From NCBI RefSeq assembly GCF_026676115.1, contig NZ_JAPONB010000004.1, positions 124,001 to 188,000 of the forward strand: 64,000 nt of DNA. Direction: 5' to 3'. This DNA comes from Salinimicrobium sp. TH3. GTDB taxonomy: Bacteria; Bacteroidota; Bacteroidia; Flavobacteriales; Flavobacteriaceae. Numbering within the stretch: the stretch's first letter is position 1; every line of letters begins with the position of its first letter. The position numbers were made by a program, and so were the translations under genes. Of this stretch, positions 14,119 through 26,743 are shown piece after piece. The notes below the pieces were generated by a model. The model saw only the letters and a list, made by a program, of their open reading frames with translations, was not told where the DNA came from and searched no databases.

Positions 14119-15051
14119 ATGTTTTATCACGTAAAAGAATTACAATTCAATGCGCGGGTATCGAAACCAGATCCTGCTTTTGCCACACTATTGCTGGAAC
14201 AGTTTGGAGGTGCAAACGGAGAATTAAAGGCAGCCCTGCAGTATTTTGTCCAGGCCTTTGCTGTCAAACAGGTCCACCCTGATAAGTATGACCTGCTTAT
14301 GGACATTGCTACTGAAGAATTCAGTCATCTCGAAATCGTAGGTGCCACTATCCAGATGCTTCTAAAAGGAATTCACGGTGATCTAAAGAATGCTGCCGAA
14401 GAGTCTGAGATCATGGAACTTTTAAAAGGAAAAGCATCCAAGGAAGATTTTATTCACAATGCTATGGTGAATCCGCAGTTCTTTAATCTTTCTGGCGGAG
14501 GCCCTACCCTCTCCGATAGTAATGGAAACCCCTGGACCTCGGCTTATGTAACAGCCAACGGAGATCTTACGGTTGATCTAAGATCAAATATTGCAGCTGA
14601 ATCACGGGCTAAAATCGTTTATGAATATCTTATGCAACATACCAGTGATCCTCACGTAAAAGATACTTTGAGGTTTCTTATGACCCGGGAAGTAGCTCAC
14701 TTCCAAATGTTCCAGGCAGCACTGGAGACCATAGAACCCAATTTCCCTCCGGGGGTCCTGCAAAGTGATCCCAAATACAGCAATAAATATTTTAACCTTT
14801 CTAATGGGGAAGATGTGAGAGGTCCATGGAATGAAGGTAAAAGCCCGGAATTGGGAGAAACCTGGGAATATATTTCAGATCCTATTGAACATGTGAGGAA
14901 AACAAAGGGAATGACTGAAGGGCATGATGACAAAAAACTTTCCAGGGATCCAAAAGAGGTCGATAAGAAAAATAAGGAATTGAGTAAAAAGAAATATGAA
15001 GAAATAACGAAAGCCATGCCCAAAGGGGAGGCACAATGGAGTAAATATTGA
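14119..15051 (+). CDS. Manganese catalase
   Basis: A 310-residue dimanganese catalase that dismutates hydrogen peroxide in the cytoplasm. The ferritin-like helical core is clear: GGANGELKAALQYFVQAF with a glutamate ligand near residue 37, DIATEEFSHLEIVGATIQ with E and H ligands near 70, and TREVAHFQMFQAALETI with E and H near 193. The C-terminal tail from about residue 240 is charged and lysine-rich, as in family members. The following gene starts seven bases later, forming a peroxide/thiol stress pair. No PerR or OxyR site could be recognised upstream. Confidence 0.93.
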   Translation: MFYHVKELQFNARVSKPDPAFATLLLEQFGGANGELKAALQYFVQAFAVKQVHPDKYDLLMDIATEEFSHLEIVGATIQMLLKGIHGDLKNAAEESEIMELLKGKASKEDFIHNAMVNPQFFNLSGGGPTLSDSNGNPWTSAYVTANGDLTVDLRSNIAAESRAKIVYEYLMQHTSDPHVKDTLRFLMTREVAHFQMFQAALETIEPNFPPGVLQSDPKYSNKYFNLSNGEDVRGPWNEGKSPELGETWEYISDPIEHVRKTKGMTEGHDDKKLSRDPKEVDKKNKELSKKKYEEITKAMPKGEAQWSKY

Positions 15052-15058
15052 TCCTTTT

Positions 15059-15808
15059 ATGGAAAAATTTAAAGTTGAATATTTTACAGATCCACTTTGC
15101 TGCTGGAGCTGGGCTTTTGAGCCCCAGTTGCGAAAACTACGTTTTCTTTTAAAAGACCGCCTGCACCTTACTTATGTGATGGGCGGTCTCTTAAGAGACT
15201 GGAAAAACTATAATGATCAAATGAATGATATAGCCCGTCCCGCTCAAATGGGGCCTTTATGGATGCAGGCACGCCATATTTCCGGCCAACCTATTGAGGA
15301 GAACATCTGGATCTCAAATCCAGTCGATACTTCTTATCTCGCATGTATGGCGGTAAAGGCGGGTTCCCTGCAATCAAAAATTGGGGAGGAAGCCATGCTT
15401 CGTAAGATAAGGGAGGCAGTAATGATGGATAAAAAAAACATTGGAGAAGTAGAGGTGATCCTGGAAATAGCCGGGGAACTGGAGCAGGCAAAAATTCTCA
15501 AAAAAAGTAAATTTCGGAAGTATCTTTTTTCTGATGAAGTGAGCAGTCTTTTTAAACAGGATTTGGACAGAACCAAAGCCAGTGGAATAAGTCGTTTCCC
15601 TACCCTTTTAATTTATTATAAAGACAAAACCTATCAGGTTACAGGTTACAGGCCTTTTAGTGAGTTAAAAAAGACATTTTCCCTCATGGATCCTAATCTT
15701 GATTTAAATGAAGTCATAGACCAGGAGGTATATTCCAATAGCTGGGAAAATCTTACAGACAGGGAACTGCTGGAAATTACTGAAGCTCCAAAAGAACTAA
15801 GTTTCTAA
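15059..15808 (+). CDS. DsbA/SpxH-like thioredoxin-fold protein
   Basis: A 249-residue thioredoxin-fold protein of the DsbA / SpxH (YjbH) type. The start FKVEYFTDPLCCWSWAFEPQ and the cis-proline region SGISRFPTLLIYY are diagnostic. The usual CxxC redox pair is reduced to C14-C15-W-S17, so it has C14 in place but serine at the resolving position. There is no signal peptide; it acts in the cytoplasm. In Firmicutes SpxH delivers the Spx regulator to ClpXP; Bacteroidota lack obvious Spx, so a glutaredoxin-like or adaptor role is more open. Co-transcribed with the catalase. Confidence 0.8.
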   Translation: MEKFKVEYFTDPLCCWSWAFEPQLRKLRFLLKDRLHLTYVMGGLLRDWKNYNDQMNDIARPAQMGPLWMQARHISGQPIEENIWISNPVDTSYLACMAVKAGSLQSKIGEEAMLRKIREAVMMDKKNIGEVEVILEIAGELEQAKILKKSKFRKYLFSDEVSSLFKQDLDRTKASGISRFPTLLIYYKDKTYQVTGYRPFSELKKTFSLMDPNLDLNEVIDQEVYSNSWENLTDRELLEITEAPKELSF

Positions 15809-15939
15809 TAGAATTATAGAAATTATAGTTTTCTTAATAATAAGTAATTCTGGGGGTAAGATTTTGAGTTTTTACTGACTAAAATCATACTTTTTGGGGT
15901 TTTGCCAGCGTAACTTTATACAAGTCAAAATCCAAGATC

Positions 15940-16755
15940 ATGAAAAAGATAATCTATGCTACAGACTTTTCACATTACTCTGTGGCGGCCCTTAAATATG
16001 CAGCTGAACTGGCCAGGATAATGGGAGATGATCTCATTGCTCTTCATGTTTATCCGCCTAATGATGGAGAAAAGCGGAATTCAGATTTTCTAAAGAAGCA
16101 TCAGAAAGAGCTTCAGGATTTTTGCAAACTTCATTTAGGGGAGGAATATAATTCCCAATTCATTTCGCCCGCAGTGGTTTCCGGGCCTGAAGTGGCAGAA
16201 GAAATTCTAAAATTCACCAAAGATCTTCAGGTAAGAATGATTATTATGGGAGCATGTGGCTCCAGTAAGCTTAAAGACAGGCTAGTTGGCACTACCACGA
16301 GTGAAATGATTGGTAAATCTCATCTACCTGTATTAGCCGTGCCTCCACAATTTAAATTTAAACAGCCTCAAAAGATCTTTTTTGCAAGCACTTTTGACGA
16401 TCAGGAATTAATCTATCTCAAAGAATTAATTCCTCTGGCAAAAGCTTTAAATGCAAAAATCGAGATCGTACATATTACTCACCGGGAAGAAGATGAAGCT
16501 ATAAAGAACCTGAAAGCTTTTCAGAAAAAAGTGAAGTCAGAAATCCCCTACCCCAATATTGAATATAAAACGCTGTATTCATTTGAAGTCTTTGATACCC
16601 TGCGAAAGACAATTGAGGAAGAGCTCCCGGATATTGTATTGATGCCCGAGAAGAGGAATATGAATCTTTTTAAAAGAGGATTGGTAAGGGACCGTATCAA
16701 AAGGATGCAATCCTGTAGCCCTTCTCCCCTGCTTACTTTTCCTGCTTTTGCTTAA
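15940..16755 (+). CDS. Universal stress protein, two Usp domains
   Basis: A 271-residue protein with two Usp domains. The first (1-140) begins IIYATDFSHYSVAALKYA and carries the ATP-binding signature GACGSSKLKDRLVGTTTSEM followed by HLPVLAVP. The second half (150-271) keeps the fold pattern (IFFASTFDDQELIYL; IEIVHIT) but has lost the glycine-rich motif, which is typical of double Usp proteins. It likely works in stress survival. It follows the catalase/SpxH pair after a 131-base spacer and so probably has its own promoter. Confidence 0.88.
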   Translation: MKKIIYATDFSHYSVAALKYAAELARIMGDDLIALHVYPPNDGEKRNSDFLKKHQKELQDFCKLHLGEEYNSQFISPAVVSGPEVAEEILKFTKDLQVRMIIMGACGSSKLKDRLVGTTTSEMIGKSHLPVLAVPPQFKFKQPQKIFFASTFDDQELIYLKELIPLAKALNAKIEIVHITHREEDEAIKNLKAFQKKVKSEIPYPNIEYKTLYSFEVFDTLRKTIEEELPDIVLMPEKRNMNLFKRGLVRDRIKRMQSCSPSPLLTFPAFA

Positions 16756-17672: not shown

Positions 17673-19559
17673 ATGGCAGTAAGTACATCTAATGAACCAA
17701 AGGCATTTAGTGAAATATCTATTGAAAAAATAGTAGAAGAACTCCAGGAGAAATGCGAGATTGAAAAGCATTTACCGGGGGGTGGTTTCCTTCATATGAG
17801 TGATGAACTCCCCTACCTGGTTATCTACCGAAACGAAGATGAGGATATAGAAAAAGGGGAAGACCGCGCTACCGTGCGTCTTATTTTGAGTGAAGCTTCC
17901 TTTCTAATTATAGGAAATAAGGATTTTGAAGGATACCAGCGGCTCATGTTTTGCCTTAGTGAAGCCATGTCCTCAAAATTTAAATCTTTCTTGATCATTG
18001 AAGTTTATGCAGGAGCCCCGGAGAGTCGAAAATTTAAAATTAAGGGTCCTGCAGAAAAACTTTCCACCACAATTAAAGTTTTACAGGAAGAACTGGATGA
18101 CGTGGATTCAGGATACAGGGCTTTAAAACTTGGATCTACCGAAGTGCAGGATACTCTGGAAAGACAACCAGAAGGGAAGAAACCCCTTTTAAACCTGGAA
18201 CAGTTAAAAGCTTCCGGATGTTTGCTGCTGGGAATTGAAGTGCCGCCCGTCTACCGCAGCAAGGAAGGAGAAGACTACCCGGTTTTCTTTAGAAGCTTTA
18301 AAGATGATTTTGTAGTTGCCCTTCACAAAACAATATTTCAGTTCATTAGAATCCAAACCTCCAGCGGAGTCAAGAGCTACAGAGCTCTGGGACAAAAAAA
18401 CCTTCAGAATAAAGTTAAAGAGATTGACCGGCAGCTGGCCCAAATTGAAACTTCTTATCAATTCCTGTGGTTAGTTTCCCCTGCCAACATACGGCAGATC
18501 AAAGACACCTTTTTTGAAAGTAATTATGAAAAGGTACTTAACTATCATTATCGGCTTATACCATTTGACCCAGATGTTCTAAAACGAAGACTTTATAATC
18601 TTAAACTGGAGGAAATTGATGATCCCGCCCTCTCCTATATCTTCAGGGAAAAACGTGAAGAGCTGGATCTACAGATAAGTATGCTTAGCGACAGAGGTTC
18701 AGATAATTTTTTCTACAACAGTATGATGCTGTTTGGAAAAATTAGCAATGATCTTCAACACGAAGCTGAGACTATCTTAAAAGAAGTTCCTGAGAAGGAA
18801 GATCATGCTTTTGAAAGCATTATGAAAGCAGAAGATTTTAAGGTACTTGCAAATCGGGAATTTGACTACTTCAGGGAACAGGATGAAAATTTTTCAAGTA
18901 AAGTACACATTCGTGATGATGTGAATATCCTTATGGTCTCCAGGGGAGAACTTTATTTGCCAAGTGATTACAAACTCAATGCAAATGAAACTAAAGCATT
19001 GATCCAGCACGAAATTGGAACCCATGTCCTCACCTATTATAATGGAAATCAACAGCCATTAAAATTGTTATCCATAGGTCTAACAGATTACGATACCCTG
19101 CAGGAAGGGCTCGCTGTTCTTTCTGAATACCTTGTGGGGGGACTTACCGGCAACAGGATGCGAACCCTGGCAGGCCGGGTGGTCGCAGCTTCGGCCCGAA
19201 TGCATGGGGCCGATTTTAAAGAGATCTTCCGGCTGCTCAATAAAGATTATAACTTTAAACCACAACGTGCATTTAATATCACCTCCAGGATTATGCAGGG
19301 AGGTGGCTTCACAAAAGATATTTCTTATTTAAAAGGCTTGGTGCAACTCAAGAAGCACCTGGAAGAAGGTGGAGAATTAGCTCCCCTGCTCACAGGGAAA
19401 TTTGCTCTGGAACATATGCCAATTATTAGTGAATTGAATGAAAGAAGAGTGCTTTCACCCGTTAAACTCACCCCAAGATATCTTCATACCGAAGAAACCA
19501 GAAAAAAACTAAGTCAAATAAGGGAGGGAATACCCCTTGCCAAACTAATAAATGCATGA
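17673..19559 (+). CDS. MATCAP/QEGLA-type metallopeptidase (DUF1704)
   Basis: A 628-residue cytoplasmic protein of the flavohemoglobin-expression-modulating QEGLA family (DUF1704/TIGR02421). The C-terminal domain has the zinc motif HEIGTH (H446, E447, H451; HExxxH) and LQEGLAVLSEYL, whose glutamate E478 is the likely third ligand. The same HEIGTH...QEGL arrangement occurs in eukaryotic MATCAP (KIAA0895L), a tubulin tyrosine carboxypeptidase, so C-terminal residue removal from a peptide or protein tail is a reasonable inference. The N-terminal 230 residues show no motif I can name. It is the first gene of a four-gene operon and overlaps the next by four bases (ATGA). Confidence 0.85.
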   Translation: MAVSTSNEPKAFSEISIEKIVEELQEKCEIEKHLPGGGFLHMSDELPYLVIYRNEDEDIEKGEDRATVRLILSEASFLIIGNKDFEGYQRLMFCLSEAMSSKFKSFLIIEVYAGAPESRKFKIKGPAEKLSTTIKVLQEELDDVDSGYRALKLGSTEVQDTLERQPEGKKPLLNLEQLKASGCLLLGIEVPPVYRSKEGEDYPVFFRSFKDDFVVALHKTIFQFIRIQTSSGVKSYRALGQKNLQNKVKEIDRQLAQIETSYQFLWLVSPANIRQIKDTFFESNYEKVLNYHYRLIPFDPDVLKRRLYNLKLEEIDDPALSYIFREKREELDLQISMLSDRGSDNFFYNSMMLFGKISNDLQHEAETILKEVPEKEDHAFESIMKAEDFKVLANREFDYFREQDENFSSKVHIRDDVNILMVSRGELYLPSDYKLNANETKALIQHEIGTHVLTYYNGNQQPLKLLSIGLTDYDTLQEGLAVLSEYLVGGLTGNRMRTLAGRVVAASARMHGADFKEIFRLLNKDYNFKPQRAFNITSRIMQGGGFTKDISYLKGLVQLKKHLEEGGELAPLLTGKFALEHMPIISELNERRVLSPVKLTPRYLHTEETRKKLSQIREGIPLAKLINA

Positions 19560-20605
19560 AGATATGTTTTGTAGTTAATAGTGTGGAGTCCGAAGGTGCA
19601 GGAACAACGGTCTATATAATGCACGAAGCCTGGAAAAGAAACCATGAAGTGTATCTTATGGGGGTCGGTGATTTCAGCTTTACAAAAAATGAAGCCCTTA
19701 CTATCATTAGTACTTCCCTGCCTAAAAGCCTTAAGCCCCAGAATCCTGAAGAACATCTTGAAATGTTACAGGGGGAAAAGGCTAAAAAGAAAAAAATTAA
19801 AGCAAAAGAATTAGATGTACTTTTTATACGTAACAACCCTACCGAAGAAGGTTCGGGACGTCATTGGGCAGAGCAATCGGGCGTAGCGTTTGGCCGCATG
19901 GTTCAACAGGAGGGAGTTCTGGTTCTTAACGATGCATTTGCCCTTTCCAATGCTTTTATTGATAAGCTTTATTTTGAAGAATTACCTGCCCATGTAAAAC
20001 CGGCATCTCTTATCACTCGTGATAAACAGGAAATTCTTGAATTTTTTGAGTACCATAAGAAGAAAATGATTCTCAAACCGCTAGAAGGATCTGGAGGACG
20101 CGGTGTTTACTTGATCGACAAGAATGAAAAAAACCTAAATCAAATTATTGAAAACCTTAGTGCACAGGGTTATATTATTGCCCAGCAATATTTACCTGCC
20201 GCTAAGGAAGGAGATGTACGGGTTCTTCTTCTCAACGGAAAGATCCTTCAAAAGAACGGAAAGTTCGGGATCATAAAAAGAGTTAGTGGTGATGGGGAAT
20301 TTCGTAGTAATATTTCGCAAGGTGCTACCCCTGAAGCCAGCGAACACACAAAAGAAATTCAGAAAATAGTGGATATCATTGGTCCGAAATTAAAAAGAGA
20401 CGGCCACTTTTTTGTAGGCCTGGATGTGGTAAAAGATAAACTAATTGAGATCAACGTTCTAAGTCCCGGTGGGATCGACGGACTCTTCAAAATTGGTGTA
20501 GAAAATTTTTCGGATGTTATCATGGAAGCAATCGAGAAAAAAGTAGAATATAAGAAGCTCTATGGTTCGAAAATCTTGAACAGAGAGCTGGCCACAATGG
20601 AATAA
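19556..20605 (+). CDS. GshB-like ATP-grasp ligase, copy 1
   Basis: A 349-residue ATP-grasp protein related to glutathione synthetase GshB. N-terminal KICFVVNSVESEGAGTT is a pre-ATP-grasp Rossmann-like domain; RNNPTEEGSGRHWAEQSG matches the GshB region that precedes the ATP-grasp. Then come KPLEGSGGRGVYLID (nucleotide loop), EGDVRVLLLNG, FRSNISQGATPE, and GLDVVKDKLIEINVLSPGGI with metal ligands E and N. It should form an amide bond between a carboxylate and an amine via an acyl phosphate. Substrates are unknown; the neighbouring peptidase and deacylase suggest a small peptide. Its start overlaps the upstream stop. Confidence 0.88.
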   Translation: MKICFVVNSVESEGAGTTVYIMHEAWKRNHEVYLMGVGDFSFTKNEALTIISTSLPKSLKPQNPEEHLEMLQGEKAKKKKIKAKELDVLFIRNNPTEEGSGRHWAEQSGVAFGRMVQQEGVLVLNDAFALSNAFIDKLYFEELPAHVKPASLITRDKQEILEFFEYHKKKMILKPLEGSGGRGVYLIDKNEKNLNQIIENLSAQGYIIAQQYLPAAKEGDVRVLLLNGKILQKNGKFGIIKRVSGDGEFRSNISQGATPEASEHTKEIQKIVDIIGPKLKRDGHFFVGLDVVKDKLIEINVLSPGGIDGLFKIGVENFSDVIMEAIEKKVEYKKLYGSKILNRELATME

Positions 20606-20658
20606 AATAAAATTTTAAGAATAATAAACCGGGAGAAATCCCTTAAAACAAAGAATTA

Positions 20659-21708
20659 ATGAAAATATGTTTTGTTGTAAATAATGTCGAAACTGAAAAC
20701 TGTGGGACCACTGTGTTCCTTATGCAGGAGGCCCGTAAACGTAAGCATGAGGTTTATGCAATGGGAGTAGGAGACTTCTTTTTCAAGCAGGGTGAAGAAC
20801 TCTCTATTGATTCCACCTACGTTCCTAAAAAAATGGAAGCCAAGACGCCAGAAGAATATCTAAAACTTCTTCAGGGAGATAAAGCTAAAAAAGAAAGAAT
20901 AACAGCTACAGATCTTGATGTGCTGTTCATAAGAAATAACCCTACCGAGGAAGGTTCTTCCCGCCAATGGGCGGAACAGTCTGGTATTGCTTTTGGACGA
21001 ATGATGCAACAGGAGGGAGTGCTGGTTTTGAATGATGCCTATGCCCTATCCAATGCTTTTATAGACAAATTGTACTTCGAAGAACTTCCTGCCAGTATAA
21101 AACCAAATTCCATAATTACCCGTAAGAAAGAGGACGTGATGGAATTCTTCGAAAAACATAAGAAGAAAATGGTTCTTAAACCTCTTGAAGGTTCTGGCGG
21201 TAGAGATGTATATCTTATCGATAAAAACGAGAAGAACCTAAACCAGATTATAGAGAACCTTTCTGGACAGGGATACATTATAGCCCAGGAATATTTACCT
21301 GCAGCAAAAGATGGGGATGTGAGAGTTTTACTTCTCAATGGTCGTGTAATGGAAAAAGATGGTAATTACGGGATCATAAAAAGATTGACCGGCGAGGGAG
21401 AATTCCGAAGTAATTTTAACCAGGGAGGTACAGGCGATAAAAGTCCCCTCACAGAAGAGATGAAAAAGATCATTGAAATAACCGCTCCAAAATTAATAAG
21501 GGACGGCTTATTCTTCGTAGGACTTGATATTGTCAAAGACAAGCTCATTGAAATCAATGTATTGAGTCCAGGCGGGATGGATCACTTTGGAGAAATTGGG
21601 CTCCCCGATTTTTCGGATGTAGTGATCGATGCTATTGAGAAGAAAGTTGAATACAAGAAGTTGTACAAAGGCCAGATATCCAATCAGGTGTTGGCTACTA
21701 TGGCATAA
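20659..21708 (+). CDS. GshB-like ATP-grasp ligase, copy 2
   Basis: Tandem paralogue of the preceding gene and of identical length (349 residues); by eye about two thirds of positions are identical. All ATP-grasp elements are kept: KPLEGSGGRDVYLID, DGDVRVLLLNG, FRSNFNQGGTGD and GLDIVKDKLIEINVLSPGGM. Differences cluster in the N-terminal region (CGTTVFLMQEARKR versus AGTTVYIMHEAWKR), in the GGRD/GGRG loop and after the RSN motif, where substrate selectivity would be expected. The gap to copy 1 is 53 bases, to the next gene 18. Two sequential couplings, or two substrates, are more likely than simple dosage, since both remain intact. Confidence 0.88.
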   Translation: MKICFVVNNVETENCGTTVFLMQEARKRKHEVYAMGVGDFFFKQGEELSIDSTYVPKKMEAKTPEEYLKLLQGDKAKKERITATDLDVLFIRNNPTEEGSSRQWAEQSGIAFGRMMQQEGVLVLNDAYALSNAFIDKLYFEELPASIKPNSIITRKKEDVMEFFEKHKKKMVLKPLEGSGGRDVYLIDKNEKNLNQIIENLSGQGYIIAQEYLPAAKDGDVRVLLLNGRVMEKDGNYGIIKRLTGEGEFRSNFNQGGTGDKSPLTEEMKKIIEITAPKLIRDGLFFVGLDIVKDKLIEINVLSPGGMDHFGEIGLPDFSDVVIDAIEKKVEYKKLYKGQISNQVLATMA

Positions 21709-21726
21709 CTTCAGAAAAAAAATATA

Positions 21727-22623
21727 ATGAAAGATAACACCCGGATTATAGGAGAATACTCCACCAATAAAAAAGGACCTTTATTATTTGTCACTGCCGG
21801 AGTTCATGGAAATGAACCCAGCGGGGTACAAGCCTTAAAAAAGGTCTTTGCTGAACTTGAAAAAACCAAACCCGAAATCAACGGAAGAATTGTAGGTGTA
21901 ATGGGCAATAAAGCTGCCCTTGAAAAGGAACAACGGTATATTGATGAAGACCTGAACCGCACCTGGACCGAAGATAATGTCAAGAACCGCGATCCTGAAA
22001 CCCAGGAACAAAGGGAAATGCATGAAATAATTGAAGTCCTTGAAAAGTATCCCGAAGAGGAATATTCAAAACGTTATTTTCTGGACTGCCACACAACCTC
22101 TTCAGATAGTTTGCCTTACATATCTGTGCAGGATGTGAATGACAATGATAGCTGGGCCCACAAATTCCCTACCTACATTGTGAGAGGATTTAGTGATATT
22201 ATCTACGGTGCCATAGATCACTATATGAGCCGAACGGGTCTTACAGGTTTTGTTTTTGAAGCAGGCCAGCACACCAGCAAGGCTTCTGTTGAAAACCATG
22301 AAGGAATGATATGGCTGGCTTTAAAGGAAGCAAATGGTCTTGAAGTGACGAATGTTTCCTGCTATCCCGAATGTGTGGAACGCTTTACCGAGAAAAATGC
22401 TCCTTCTCAAAAAACTTTTGAGATCAAATACCGGCACGAAATCAAAAAAGGAGATAGTTTTAAAATGGAGCCGGGGTTTAAGAATTTTCAAAAAATTAAA
22501 AAAGGCCAGTTACTTGCAACAAGTAATGGGCAGGAGATAAAAAGTGAATGGGATGCCTATATTTTTATGCCCCTTTACCAGTCTCAGGGCAATGACGGCT
22601 TTTTTGTCATTGAAGAACAGTAA
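21727..22623 (+). CDS. Succinylglutamate desuccinylase / aspartoacylase family
   Basis: A 298-residue zinc amidohydrolase of the AstE/AspA family (M14-related fold). Metal ligands appear in GVHGNEPSG (H and E near residues 28-31) and in DCHTTSSDS near 121; the substrate arginine lies in DEDLNRTW near 81 and the catalytic glutamate in FVFEAGQHTS near 178. Such enzymes remove N-acyl groups from amino acids. It is the last gene of the peptidase and ATP-grasp operon, suggesting it deacylates or recycles the product. AstE in arginine breakdown is unlikely, because no other ast genes are present. Confidence 0.87.
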   Translation: MKDNTRIIGEYSTNKKGPLLFVTAGVHGNEPSGVQALKKVFAELEKTKPEINGRIVGVMGNKAALEKEQRYIDEDLNRTWTEDNVKNRDPETQEQREMHEIIEVLEKYPEEEYSKRYFLDCHTTSSDSLPYISVQDVNDNDSWAHKFPTYIVRGFSDIIYGAIDHYMSRTGLTGFVFEAGQHTSKASVENHEGMIWLALKEANGLEVTNVSCYPECVERFTEKNAPSQKTFEIKYRHEIKKGDSFKMEPGFKNFQKIKKGQLLATSNGQEIKSEWDAYIFMPLYQSQGNDGFFVIEEQ

Positions 22624-23135: not shown

Positions 23136-23507
23136 TTATTCTGAATAAGCTATGGTGCTTAAAAGGGCATTTTCGGCCTGCCTTGAATCCAGGCGGGTAT
23201 GTTGAACTACTACCGGTATAGTAGAAACGATAACACAGGCATAATCAGTTCCCAATGGTACCGGCTCGGGCTCTTGTAGATCATTAAATCTTAGGTGTTT
23301 TGTTCTCTGTGCCTCCACCGTCACCTTATAGGGACCCACCGGATCTTTATCTGAGAAAAAAATGGTCAATTCGACCTCGGCATCTTGATTAGAGGTGTTG
23401 AGAATACAAGCTGTTTCATGACTTGTGAACTCCGGTTCCTTACCCGTTCCATATTTTGGGATGTAGCCTTCGGCTATTACCCAGGTTTTTTTTCCTAGTG
23501 CTTTCAT
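23136..23507 (-). CDS. ASRT-family (sensory rhodopsin transducer-like) protein
   Basis: A 123-residue protein closely matching the Anabaena sensory rhodopsin transducer family: WVIAEGYIPKYGTGKEPEF, HETACILNTS, FFSDKDPVGPYKVTV, RTKHLRFNDLQEPEP and the C-terminal VVVQHTRLDSRQAENALLS. The family forms a small beta-sandwich and is thought to bind small molecules, perhaps sugars. No rhodopsin is present in the window. The gene is last in a carbohydrate operon, three bases after the GH13 alpha-glucosidase stop, which supports a sugar- or polyol-related role rather than photosensing. Confidence 0.93.
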   Translation of the reverse strand: MKALGKKTWVIAEGYIPKYGTGKEPEFTSHETACILNTSNQDAEVELTIFFSDKDPVGPYKVTVEAQRTKHLRFNDLQEPEPVPLGTDYACVIVSTIPVVVQHTRLDSRQAENALLSTIAYSE

Positions 23508-23510
23508 TGT

Positions 23511-25106
23511 TTATTCCAGTTTAATAACCAGGCCCAGATTGGCCGGGAGGTTAATTTTATCATTCATTTCCTTCCCTTCAAATTCTTCGTGAGATGAAAC
23601 TTTTACAGTTCCTGTCCATTTAAAACCGGGAGCAAAATTCACTTCTGAATCTGTGAGATTTAAAACTATAAGGAACTGTTGTTCCTCGTATTTCCTGATG
23701 TAAGAAAGAATGCCATCTTGAGACAGTACAGGCAGATAATTGCCAACATGCAGGGCCGGTTCCTGCGCCCGAATTTTTAAAAGTTTCCTGTGCAGCTGAA
23801 GCATTGAACCAGGCTGGTCCCATTGCTTTTTCACGTTAATTTCTTTATAATTTACCATTAGCGGAAGCCATGGGTCTCCTTTAGTAAATCCTGCATTTTT
23901 TGTAGCATCCCACTGCATTGGGGTGCGTTCTGGATCCCGGCTGCGTCCAACTCCGGGTTCATTCAAAGCCTGTGGATCCTGAATCTTCTCCTTTGGAATA
24001 TCAACATCCTGCATCCCCAGTTCATCCCCATAATAAATGGTAGGCGTTCCTCTAAGTGTTAGCAACAATATTGCGGCATTTTTGGCCTGGTCCTTCCCCA
24101 CCCGGCTTGCAATTCGGGAATTGTCATGGTTACCCAACACCCAATTGGGCCAGCCATTTTCAGGAAGCGCCCCTTCATATTCATCTATTGTAGCTTTGAT
24201 CCTGGCAGCATTCCACGGAAGCTGCAGCAGTTGAAAATTAAAAGGTAAATGAGCGCCCTGATTGTCTTCTCCGTAATAACTTACAAGCTTGCTTATTGGC
24301 AGGTAAATTTCTCCAATGAGTAATCTCTCATCATATTCATCGATTACCTTCCGCATTTTATGCACTATGTCATGAACTTCATCCTGGTCTGTTGAATAGG
24401 CCGGAAGTAATTTACTGTAGGAATTCATTCCTTTCTTATATTCAGGATTTGGTGGATCATCCCTCAATTGTTCGTCTTTGATCATATGCCACATCACATC
24501 TACCCTAAAACCGTCTACTCCCTTCTTGAGCCAATACCTCATTATGGCAAGCATTGCCTGCTGCAAATCGGGGTTTCTCCAATTGAGATCGGGTTGTTCT
24601 TTTAAAAATGCATGGTAATAATATTGTTCGGTTTTCTCATCATATTCCCAACCACTACCTCCAAAAACACTTAACCAGTTATTAGGTGGGCCTCCATCCT
24701 TACCGGGATCTTTCCAAATATACCAGTCCCGTTTATGATTGTTTTTTGAACTTTTGGATTCCAGGAACCATGGATGCTTATTTGAAGAATGATTAGGTAC
24801 TAAGTCAAGGATAAGTTTCATTCCTCTTTGATGTACTTCCGTAAGCAATTCATCAAAATCCTTCATTTCTCCAAATAAAGGATGGATACCCGTATAATCA
24901 CTTACATCGTACCCAAAATCGGCCATGGGAGAAGGATAAATGGGTGATATCCAGACAGCATCAACACCCAGATCTTTCAGGTAATCGAGTTTTTCTATTA
25001 TTCCACGTAGGTCTCCTACACCATCTCCATCACTGTCTTTGAAGGATCTTGGGTAAATTTGATACACTACTCCCTTGTGCCACCATAAGTATTCTTTGTA
25101 ATTCAT
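23511..25106 (-). CDS. GH13 alpha-glucosidase-like enzyme
   Basis: A 531-residue glycoside hydrolase family 13 enzyme of the oligo-1,6-glucosidase/alpha-glucosidase type. Conserved regions: VYQIYPRSFKDSDGDGVGDL at the start, DLVPNHSS near 102, GFRVDVMWHM (nucleophile Asp) near 199, LLIGEIYLP (acid/base Glu) near 262 and LGNHDNSR near 323. No signal peptide, so cytoplasmic. It should release or transfer glucose from alpha-glucosides such as maltose, isomaltose or sucrose. It overlaps the upstream GH13 gene by four bases and is followed by the ASRT gene. Confidence 0.92.
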   Translation of the reverse strand: MNYKEYLWWHKGVVYQIYPRSFKDSDGDGVGDLRGIIEKLDYLKDLGVDAVWISPIYPSPMADFGYDVSDYTGIHPLFGEMKDFDELLTEVHQRGMKLILDLVPNHSSNKHPWFLESKSSKNNHKRDWYIWKDPGKDGGPPNNWLSVFGGSGWEYDEKTEQYYYHAFLKEQPDLNWRNPDLQQAMLAIMRYWLKKGVDGFRVDVMWHMIKDEQLRDDPPNPEYKKGMNSYSKLLPAYSTDQDEVHDIVHKMRKVIDEYDERLLIGEIYLPISKLVSYYGEDNQGAHLPFNFQLLQLPWNAARIKATIDEYEGALPENGWPNWVLGNHDNSRIASRVGKDQAKNAAILLLTLRGTPTIYYGDELGMQDVDIPKEKIQDPQALNEPGVGRSRDPERTPMQWDATKNAGFTKGDPWLPLMVNYKEINVKKQWDQPGSMLQLHRKLLKIRAQEPALHVGNYLPVLSQDGILSYIRKYEEQQFLIVLNLTDSEVNFAPGFKWTGTVKVSSHEEFEGKEMNDKINLPANLGLVIKLE

Positions 25107-26743
25107 AAGAAATTATGTTTTTTATGCATCCATCTGTAACCATAAGGGGTTAACTTCACTTCAGCTTTTCCGGGGTCGAAATTTTCATATCTTATATTTC
25201 CGAAGACATCTACAACATCCTTAAATAATTCCTTATCCACTTCGAGCTTTATGGTGATTTCTTTTCCCGAGAAATTGTGAAATGCTACTCCCATCCCTTT
25301 TTCAGATTTTGTATAGTGTCCTAAAACATGAGGATTACCGGTGTCGAGGACGTGGTTACGGCCCCATCCAAATTCCGCAAATTCTTTCCGGTAATCTATG
25401 GCTTTGGAGATCCAGGTAAGAAAAGAATCGGGATCTCTCAATTGATCACTTACATTAACTTTCTCATAGCCAAAATCTCCTCCAGAAATGACATTTCTAA
25501 TAAGATTTTCTGTGGGTGCAGTAGAAAACCCGCCATTCCTGTCATTAGCCCACTGCATAACTGTGCGAACACTGGAACGACCTTCCATTGAAAGATCTTC
25601 CCCCATTCCTATTTCTTCACCATACCGCAACACCGGTGTACCGGGAATCGTAAAAAGAAGGCTGTGGGCCAATTCCATTTTTTTCCGGTCATTTCCAAGC
25701 ATTGAAGCCAATCTCCGCCTTATTCCCCTTCCAAAAATGCGCATGTTTTCTTTGGGGGCAAAAGCTTTAAAAACCTCTTCTCTTTCGGTTCTACTCAATT
25801 TGTCAAGGTTTAATTCGTCATGATTCCTAAGAAATGTTGCGAGCTGTTCTTTTTCGGTAATCTCTTCGGGCATTCTTTGCAGTGCACGGGCAACAGGAAT
25901 AGCCTCTTCCCTGGCAAATGACAGGTACATGAAGTTATTCACATAAAAATTAAACAGCATATGCATCTGGTCCTCGTTCCCCAGGTACTTATTATATTGG
26001 TTGGGATCAAGGTCTACTTCGGCGAGTAAAATAGCATCGGGTTTTTGAGTTTCAACAAATTCCCTGAAATTCCGGAAGATCTTATGTGGATCTCCTTCAA
26101 AGTCCATTCTGCCTTTTTCCTTGAACATGTGAGGCGCTGCGTCAATCCTGAAGCCTGAAACTCCCATTTTTAACCAAAAATGCATGATCCTGCATATTTC
26201 CTCCTGAACTTGCGGATTGGCTATATTTAGATCGGGTTGATGGGGATAAAAAGAATGGAAATAATACGCTTTAGCAGTACGATCATATTTCCAGCTGATG
26301 CTTTCCTCACCTTCGGCTGCCATCATATTTTTCTCAGGGTCCTCTGGCTTTTCATCTACCCAGATATAATAATCTCTGTATTTGGAATTTTTGTCCTTCC
26401 GGGATTCCTGAAACCAGAAATGTTCAGACGAAGTGTGATTAACTGCAAGGTCAATAAGTATTCTAATACCCACTTCTTCCGCAGCATCAATGAGCTGAGT
26501 GAAATGACCTAAATCGCCGAGACGGGGATCTATTTTATAATAATCTTTTACGTCATAGCCATTGTCCCGGTTTGGGGTATCGAAAATTGGCAGGAGCCAG
26601 ATACAGGTGATCCCAAGACTCGAAAGGAAGGGAAGGGCATTTTTAAGTCCCTTGAAATCTCCGGTACCGTCACCCGTTGCATCCTTAAAAGTTTCTACAT
26701 CCAGCGAATAGATCACCGCATTTTTGTACCAGTATTTATTCAT
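25103..26743 (-). CDS. GH13 trehalose synthase-like enzyme
   Basis: A 546-residue GH13 enzyme that resembles the trehalose synthase / amylosucrase-like branch: WYKNAVIYSLDVETFKDATG at the N-terminus, IDLAVNHTSSEH near 99, GFRIDAAPHMF (nucleophile Asp) near 197, LLAEVDLDPNQ (acid/base Glu) near 240, and FLRNHDELNLDKLSR near 308. The RNHDEL form is typical of TreS. No signal peptide. Maltose-trehalose interconversion or a related transglycosylation is plausible; a C-terminal maltokinase domain is absent. The gene overlaps the second GH13 gene by four bases and follows the LLM oxidoreductase by nine. Confidence 0.87.
   Translation of the reverse strand: MNKYWYKNAVIYSLDVETFKDATGDGTGDFKGLKNALPFLSSLGITCIWLLPIFDTPNRDNGYDVKDYYKIDPRLGDLGHFTQLIDAAEEVGIRILIDLAVNHTSSEHFWFQESRKDKNSKYRDYYIWVDEKPEDPEKNMMAAEGEESISWKYDRTAKAYYFHSFYPHQPDLNIANPQVQEEICRIMHFWLKMGVSGFRIDAAPHMFKEKGRMDFEGDPHKIFRNFREFVETQKPDAILLAEVDLDPNQYNKYLGNEDQMHMLFNFYVNNFMYLSFAREEAIPVARALQRMPEEITEKEQLATFLRNHDELNLDKLSRTEREEVFKAFAPKENMRIFGRGIRRRLASMLGNDRKKMELAHSLLFTIPGTPVLRYGEEIGMGEDLSMEGRSSVRTVMQWANDRNGGFSTAPTENLIRNVISGGDFGYEKVNVSDQLRDPDSFLTWISKAIDYRKEFAEFGWGRNHVLDTGNPHVLGHYTKSEKGMGVAFHNFSGKEITIKLEVDKELFKDVVDVFGNIRYENFDPGKAEVKLTPYGYRWMHKKHNFL

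Follow-up and report, generated by a model that had tools for sequence, protein, structure and literature searches.

The human protein MATCAP1/TMCP1 (KIAA0895L) is a carboxypeptidase of tubulin tails. In bacteria, the ligase RimK and the protease RimB act on the glutamate tail of RpsF (S6), and the NAGGN operon (PA3459-PA3461) pairs a peptide-bond-forming enzyme with a peptidase (PMC8070244). In this study, we analyzed a 64,000-nucleotide stretch of the 3.69-Mb genome of Salinimicrobium sp. TH3 (C16:124001-188000, hereafter the window), which carries an operon of four plus-strand open reading frames between positions 17673 and 22623. These genes encode a MATCAP (QEGLA) metallopeptidase, two GshB-like ATP-grasp ligases (LigA and LigB) and an AstE/AspA-type deacylase. 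We found that this cassette is a real, conserved system. By record titles, the near-obligatory unit of ligase, peptidase and deacylase occurs in at least 10 phyla, which suggests a metabolite or a protein modification not yet described. It also places the MATCAP peptidases, known from tubulin, in a bacterial context. Tentatively, we favor the view that the cassette both forms and cleaves an amide bond to an acidic amino acid, and that this bond lies in a small peptide-like metabolite. Among the papers listed in literature searches outside subscription journals, none describes the cassette. Iyer and colleagues reportedly surveyed ATP-grasp/peptidase gene neighborhoods in 2009 and may mention related pairs.

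Compared with human MATCAP1, the window peptidase has the same catalytic fold, HExxxH motif and third Glu, but the bacterial long form adds a decayed domain resembling N-formylglutamate amidohydrolase (FGase), shares its operon with a ligase and is 17-18% identical. To our knowledge, tubulin is not expected in these bacteria. LigA and LigB have the domain set of E. coli GshB and of family NF009110, but score under both glutathione synthase equivalog cut-offs. The RimK-RimB system likewise joins an ATP-grasp ligase to a dedicated protease; however, the window ligases form another branch, and RimB is retropepsin-like (PMC11957791), whereas the window peptidase is of the MATCAP metallopeptidase family. 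As the families differ, the likeness to RimK-RimB lies in the way of working only. The NAGGN operon comprises an acetyltransferase-type enzyme and an asparagine-synthase-like amidotransferase, with no MATCAP, AstE or FGase in the description consulted (PMC8070244). Two further operons of the TH3 genome are also similar. One of them (L114:7827-11245, on C16 about 64 kb from the window operon) resembles the cassettes in setting an ATP-grasp ligase, here RimK-type with an RLAN domain, beside an FGase, but it contains a GCS2 protein and has no MATCAP in the stretch read. In the other (L208:3505-5804, contig C14), the gene order runs from a PF05618 RimB-type protein through RimK to another AstE. 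Hence, counting the window operon, an ATP-grasp ligase is combined with AstE or FGase in three operons of this genome.

The preliminary description of this DNA had reported the four gene families, a four-base ATGA overlap and gaps of 53 and 18 bases; open reading frame calls and family searches reproduced all of this exactly (Table 1). Judging from this spacing, the four genes are presumably co-transcribed. Scans for promoters (15 hits vs 11.1 after shuffling, standard deviation 3.9) and terminators (7 vs 5.8, standard deviation 2.7) stayed near the shuffled level. When compared with Salinimicrobium terrae, all four genes gave ratios of nonsynonymous to synonymous substitution (dN/dS) of 0.024-0.035, which are rough values because synonymous sites are near saturation. 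Thus, the operon looks to be under strong purifying selection, and its conservation together with these ratios rules out a degenerate or chance arrangement.

Table 1. Features of the MATCAP-ligase-deacylase operon (positions in the window)
Feature	Positions	Strand	Basis
Long-form MATCAP (DUF1704/QEGLA) metallopeptidase, predicted carboxypeptidase, 628 aa	17673..19559	+	PF08014, E 3.8e-84
MATCAP N-terminal domain, residues 1-230, decayed FGase-like	17673..18362	+	Profile comparison with cassette FGases
MATCAP C-terminal catalytic part (start approximate; Pfam match residues 279-617)	18375..19556	+	PF08014
LigA, GshB-like ATP-grasp ligase, first copy, 349 aa	19556..20605	+	NF009110, 413.8 bits
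LigB, GshB-like ATP-grasp ligase, second copy, 349 aa	20659..21708	+	NF009110, 433.0 bits
AstE/AspA-type deacylase, 298 aa	21727..22623	+	PF24827, E 1.8e-20

The operon belongs to a widespread cassette. A scan of titled genome records with the MATCAP alignment gave at least 586 pattern matches, of which 569 were confirmed. The best 80 of these were kept, and partner genes were sought around them by tblastn; the 80 loci are therefore the best-scoring relatives and no random sample. In 78 of the 80, MATCAP has a GshB-like ligase no more than 1 kb away on one strand or the other. In 76 of these the ligase follows MATCAP directly in the same orientation, and in L084 and L096 it is on the opposite strand. 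The two loci without a nearby ligase are L110 and L057, where the contig ends 27 bases past the match. The preliminary description had named rare co-occurrence of the genes as a finding that would speak against a common pathway, and these counts show the opposite. Record titles include Bacteroidota, Acidobacteriota, Planctomycetota, Calditrichota, Poribacteria, Verrucomicrobia, Kiritimatiellae, Gemmatimonadota, Campylobacterales/Epsilonproteobacteria, Gammaproteobacteria, Deltaproteobacteria and Actinomycetes, although many records are metagenome bins and single placements may be wrong.

A less biased sample, 199 genomes of the same family (Flavobacteriaceae), gave a consistent picture. MATCAP was found in 96 genomes and the ligase, at E 1e-30 or better, in 87, all of them within the 96. 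Nine genomes had MATCAP without such a ligase, a threshold that could miss weaker ones, and 103 had neither (Fisher p ~1e-46, on genomes whose kinship makes the rows non-independent). When only long forms were considered, defined as a MATCAP match in an open frame above 600 aa, a close ligase (at least 42% identity) followed directly downstream in 27/27, 29-380 bases past the end of the MATCAP match. In 19 of these 27 loci AstE comes next, 21-159 bases further. Close AstE relatives (at least 53% identity) occur in 19 genomes, every one in the cassette position, with a stop in the one from G260. Next in similarity come full-length AstE proteins with 30-41% identity, which are located elsewhere and mostly in longer frames.

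The long form has to be told apart from shorter MATCAP proteins. The window protein belongs to PF08014 (283.2 bits, gathering threshold 27) but stays below the cut-off of the QEGLA equivalog TIGR02421 (317.3 of 338.65 bits), and it is not filed under the latter. TIGR02421 was matched in 13 of 198 genomes spread over the phylum and in 54 of 369 Gammaproteobacteria genomes. Among 40 gammaproteobacterial regions examined, seven (L187, L197-L201 and L207) have the order FGase-MATCAP-ligase, and in each of them the MATCAP frame exceeds 620 aa. Two MATCAP frames and two ligases are present in L171, and a 702-aa frame without partners in L192. The remaining regions have shorter MATCAP frames without the unit, in a scan that detects only genes similar to the reference set. 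In two of them (L177 and L194), a RimK-sized ligase-like frame lies nearby on the opposite strand. The short gammaproteobacterial proteins named "flavohemoglobin expression-modulating" by TIGR02421, to which PA3697 presumably belongs, are thus of the same catalytic family but show no FGase-MATCAP-ligase unit in the loci examined. PA3697 regulates fhp (PMC8070244). As the short forms showed no cassette, this regulation need not apply to the window MATCAP, and we did not adopt a link to flavohemoglobin.

The deacylase varies between lineages. FGase accompanies MATCAP in 43 of the 80 loci and AstE in 29; eight have neither, and none has both. FGase lies upstream, on the same strand and within 1 kb in 38 of 43 loci. 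The other five are L071 and L092, where it stands ahead of a doubled cassette, and L084, L096 and L110. AstE is on the same strand in 26 of 29 loci and on the opposite strand in L059, L067 and L068. A tree of the MATCAP catalytic half covered 66 rows, made up of the window protein, 59 of the 80 loci and six further sequences. Once the six rows that have neither deacylase are set aside, a single change separates the AstE-type from the FGase-type rows. This tree was built by a quick method with SH-aLRT support only and a midpoint root, and gives no direction of change. Nevertheless, FGase is widespread and an FGase-like domain lies within the MATCAP protein itself, so that AstE probably replaced FGase and not the reverse. 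In seven of the 19 AstE-type genomes searched (three Aequorivita and four Leeuwenhoekiella) no FGase match was found anywhere, which indicates that AstE works there independently of a distant FGase; the other 12 have one elsewhere. The window deacylase is a member of PF24827 (73.7 bits, gathering threshold 25), but it falls below the succinylglutamate desuccinylase/aspartoacylase cut-offs NF003706 (70.6 of 170 bits), NF002601 (67.7 of 180) and TIGR03242 (62.8 of 305.65). Residues H27, E30, N77, R78, H122 and E178 are conserved in 29/29 cassette AstE proteins, and we take them to be catalytic by comparison with AstE/aspartoacylase.

The C-terminal half of the MATCAP protein has a conserved active site. 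HEIGTH begins at residue 446 and QEGLA at residue 477, and the metal-site residues H446, E447, H451 and E478, the last as third metal ligand, are invariant in 66/66 alignment rows. In human TMCP1, activity is strongly lowered by E281A and E316A (PMC10499314). The AF2 model of the whole protein has a pLDDT of 90.5, and its best Foldseek matches are the human MATCAP structures 7z6s and 7z5g (TM-score on target 0.67-0.71, at the identity given above for the fold alignment). An hmmsearch of the C-terminal alignment against the PDB also recovered 7z5g, at 1.7e-12. Hence, the window MATCAP is predicted to be a metallo-carboxypeptidase.

The N-terminal domain, residues 1-230, has no Pfam match, including none to FGase PF05013 directly. 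In profile comparison by hhalign, however, it matches the cassette FGases over 162 columns with 10% identity (probability 96.2, E 2e-9), whereas six control comparisons among cassette parts gave 0.1-0.6%. The match spans columns 98-276 of the 285-column FGase profile, so that the first 97 columns, with the conserved His, Glu and Arg, are outside the alignment. At the aligned FGase DxH motif, Glu stands in place of the Asp in 65 of 66 rows and Asp is kept in one, so that the position is always acidic. The His is found in none of the rows, which have Trp, Tyr, Phe or other residues there. By this comparison, the domain is homologous to FGase but does not keep the conserved metal-site residues at the DxH motif. 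Its separate AF2 model (pLDDT 91.9) has as top Foldseek matches the metallo-carboxypeptidases 3l2n and 4b6z (9e-5 and 1.2e-4), followed by others that include purine nucleoside phosphorylases and the gamma-polyglutamate hydrolase YndL (5onj), at TM-scores of about 0.3-0.5; the fold by itself is modest evidence for an FGase-like domain. At one locus (L020:5133-7136), a single 667-aa frame next to a ligase combines MATCAP with an FGase that Pfam matches directly. The simplest account would be an ancestral FGase-MATCAP fusion whose hydrolase half has since decayed. This domain is a candidate substrate-binding part.

Both ligases match PF02955 GSH-S_ATP (LigA 6e-50, LigB 2e-48), keep a GSH-S_N match and pass the cut-off of 408 bits of NF009110 (PRK12458, "glutathione synthetase"). 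The nearest solved structure to LigB is E. coli GshB (1gsa, E 8.6e-38), well ahead of RimK-type ligases (2.8e-10 to 1e-7). Positions K174, D290 and N300 are conserved in 80/80 ligases and E298 in 79/80. LigA and LigB are identical at 249 of 349 residues and are a local duplication. The two copies look to be under purifying selection (dN/dS 0.035 for LigA and 0.024 for LigB) and both are present in S. terrae; in another genome of the genus (G227) a single ligase match was found. Of the 80 loci, 9 gave several ligase pieces, of which L073 and L083 are genes split in two frames and L088 is the ligase of a related cluster. After this sorting, multiple ligases remain in L032, L071, L078, L084, L092 and L104. 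Of these, the planctomycete loci L071 and L092 carry the doubled cassette FGase-MATCAP-ligase-ligase-MATCAP-ligase.

Based on these families, a cycle of synthesis and recycling may be proposed. A GshB-like ligase would use ATP to turn the carboxylate of a small acyl-amino acid or peptide into an acyl phosphate and couple it to an amino acid, as expected from its family. By analogy with the human enzymes, the MATCAP domain, a predicted metallo-carboxypeptidase, would strip off the added C-terminal residue. AstE, or FGase in other lineages, would hydrolyze the N-acyl amide left on the Glu/Asp-type remainder, if these keep the chemistry of their families. The decayed N-terminal domain is probably non-catalytic and may hold the shared substrate or a partner enzyme. 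In such a scheme, synthesis and recycling by the operon would control the amount of a single acidic conjugate, and the LigA and LigB of this genus may have diverged for two acceptors or two steps.

It is from the enzyme families that the bond made and broken would be placed beside an acidic amino acid. FGase and AstE, two families named for N-acyl acidic amino acids, occupy the same slot of the cassette, and their exchange narrows the likely chemistry to such a compound. We also prefer a small molecule as substrate because the ligase comes closest to GshB and the names of both deacylase families refer to small N-acyl amino acids. This tentative view agrees with the conserved ligase position in all 27 long-form loci, the purifying selection and the presence of a sodium:dicarboxylate symporter, of an acidic-solute transporter family, by a related flavobacterial MATCAP cluster in six of 12 regions searched (L021, L023, L026, L027, L028 and L030). 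A precedent for pairing bond formation with a peptidase exists in the NAGGN operon (PMC8070244). On the other hand, several observations weigh against it. The cassette has no acyltransferase, which leaves the source of the N-acyl group unexplained. Of the eight loci with neither deacylase (L057, L078, L081, L083, L085, L095, L097 and L100), L057, L078 and L097 lie near a contig end and the remaining five show no obvious truncation on the side of the FGase. No sequence relation was detected between the FGase and AstE sets (hhalign 0.6%), so that their common chemistry rests on family names and knowledge. The symporter regions all belong to one bacterial family and may reflect plain synteny, and L020 and L031 lack the symporter. 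Finally, MATCAP relatives act on protein tails, and the RimB-RimK-AstE operon of the same genome has the same order.

This last point speaks for the main competitor, a reversible protein-tail system in which the ligases add acidic or other amino acids at a protein C-terminus, MATCAP removes them and AstE recycles the released or capped amino acids. We consider it somewhat unlikely. In its favor, the layout protease-ligase-AstE of L208 is that of MATCAP-ligase-AstE. Moreover, human TMCP1 acts on tails whose last residue is Tyr, Phe or Ala and a Tetrahymena TMCP removes Glu (PMC10499314), while RimB takes glutamates off RpsF (PMC11957791). In Photobacterium damselae, RimK (52-fold), GshB (38-fold) and a QEGLA protein at the next locus tag (27.5-fold) stand together in a table of genes higher at 1% NaCl (PMC10308900). 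We assume that this table refers to 1% NaCl throughout and that its GshB-QEGLA pair corresponds to the cassette. Conversely, LigB is closer to GshB than to RimK and both ligases have the GSH-S_N match, FGase and AstE are named for small-molecule hydrolysis, and the cassette holds no candidate target protein. A broader version of the same idea, in which a GshB-like ligase writes and MATCAP erases C-terminal residues of proteins in many phyla as a bacterial counterpart of the tubulin tail code, and the eukaryotic tubulin detyrosinases and deglutamylases descend from such a cassette, is unlikely.

It is quite unlikely that the operon is a salvage or degradation unit, whose peptidase and deacylase would degrade an acidic peptide, osmolyte or glutathione-like compound under osmotic or oxidative change, with a minor part for the ligase. 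The higher expression at low salt of GshB (PMC10308900), and probably of the whole pair, would suit such a role, as would the stress-type neighbors in the window (a Mn-catalase, a DsbA-like thioredoxin, a universal stress protein and GH13 enzymes). However, only the S. terrae locus (L032) among the 80 has Mn-catalase, thioredoxin or universal stress protein genes adjacent. The ligase is the most constant partner, is duplicated here, and both copies are under purifying selection, so that synthesis looks central.

Ordinary or near-ordinary glutathione metabolism is the weakest alternative. NF009110 bears the name glutathione synthetase, the TH3 genome has one GCS2-family gene, and the gamma-glutamylcysteine ligase family PF04107 was matched in 10 of 25 carriers, some of which hold only a short or fused MATCAP. 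Six of these matches fall within a set of 21 carriers that omits four with a PF04107 match (G413, G415, G417 and G418), so the fair count is 10/25. PF04262 was not matched in the TH3 genome nor in any of the 21 carriers, and 15 of the 21 lack both PF04107 and PF04262, the two families searched. The preliminary description had seen no gshA-type gene in the window and doubted ordinary glutathione synthesis; the sole GCS2-family match of the genome indeed lies at C16:211927-212763, about 24 kb past the window end, and belongs to L114, with its RimK-type ligase and FGase. Together with the scores of both ligases well under the equivalog cut-offs (195.5 and 188.3 of 299.05 bits for TIGR01380, 201.3 and 199.9 of 272 for NF003573), these counts make this explanation very improbable. 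Of the earlier interpretation, the conserved unit and the doubt about glutathione are borne out, while the chemistry itself is drawn from the families. The commoner FGase partner, the local ligase duplication, the decayed hydrolase-like domain and the two additional ligase-hydrolase operons go beyond it.

Other candidate roles were set aside. None of the four operon proteins matches a PADLOC model, and anti-phage defence was dismissed on this basis. An asparagine synthetase-type gene lies directly upstream of MATCAP in 5 of the 80 loci (L046, L049, L053, L054 and L057; the same cluster of open reading frames, confirmed by Pfam in L046), too rarely to serve as a hint to the pathway. A rhodanese-type protein is also found near the MATCAP cluster in L021 and L028. 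Around the window operon, the Mn-catalase, DsbA-like thioredoxin, universal stress protein and two GH13 enzymes occupy 14119-16755 and 23136-26743, along with an Anabaena sensory rhodopsin transducer-like protein. All are kept beside the operon in S. terrae, whose MATCAP is 91% identical to that of the window. A second, short MATCAP is encoded on C16 about 97 kb before the operon (L027:6138-7292), with no ligase or FGase adjacent. It has HEIGVN in place of HExxxH and QAGLG in place of QEGLA, and the same motifs occur in S. terrae (L118). With a dN/dS of about 0.016, at saturated synonymous sites, this protein looks to be under strong purifying selection and is probably a retained pseudoenzyme that has lost its metal site.

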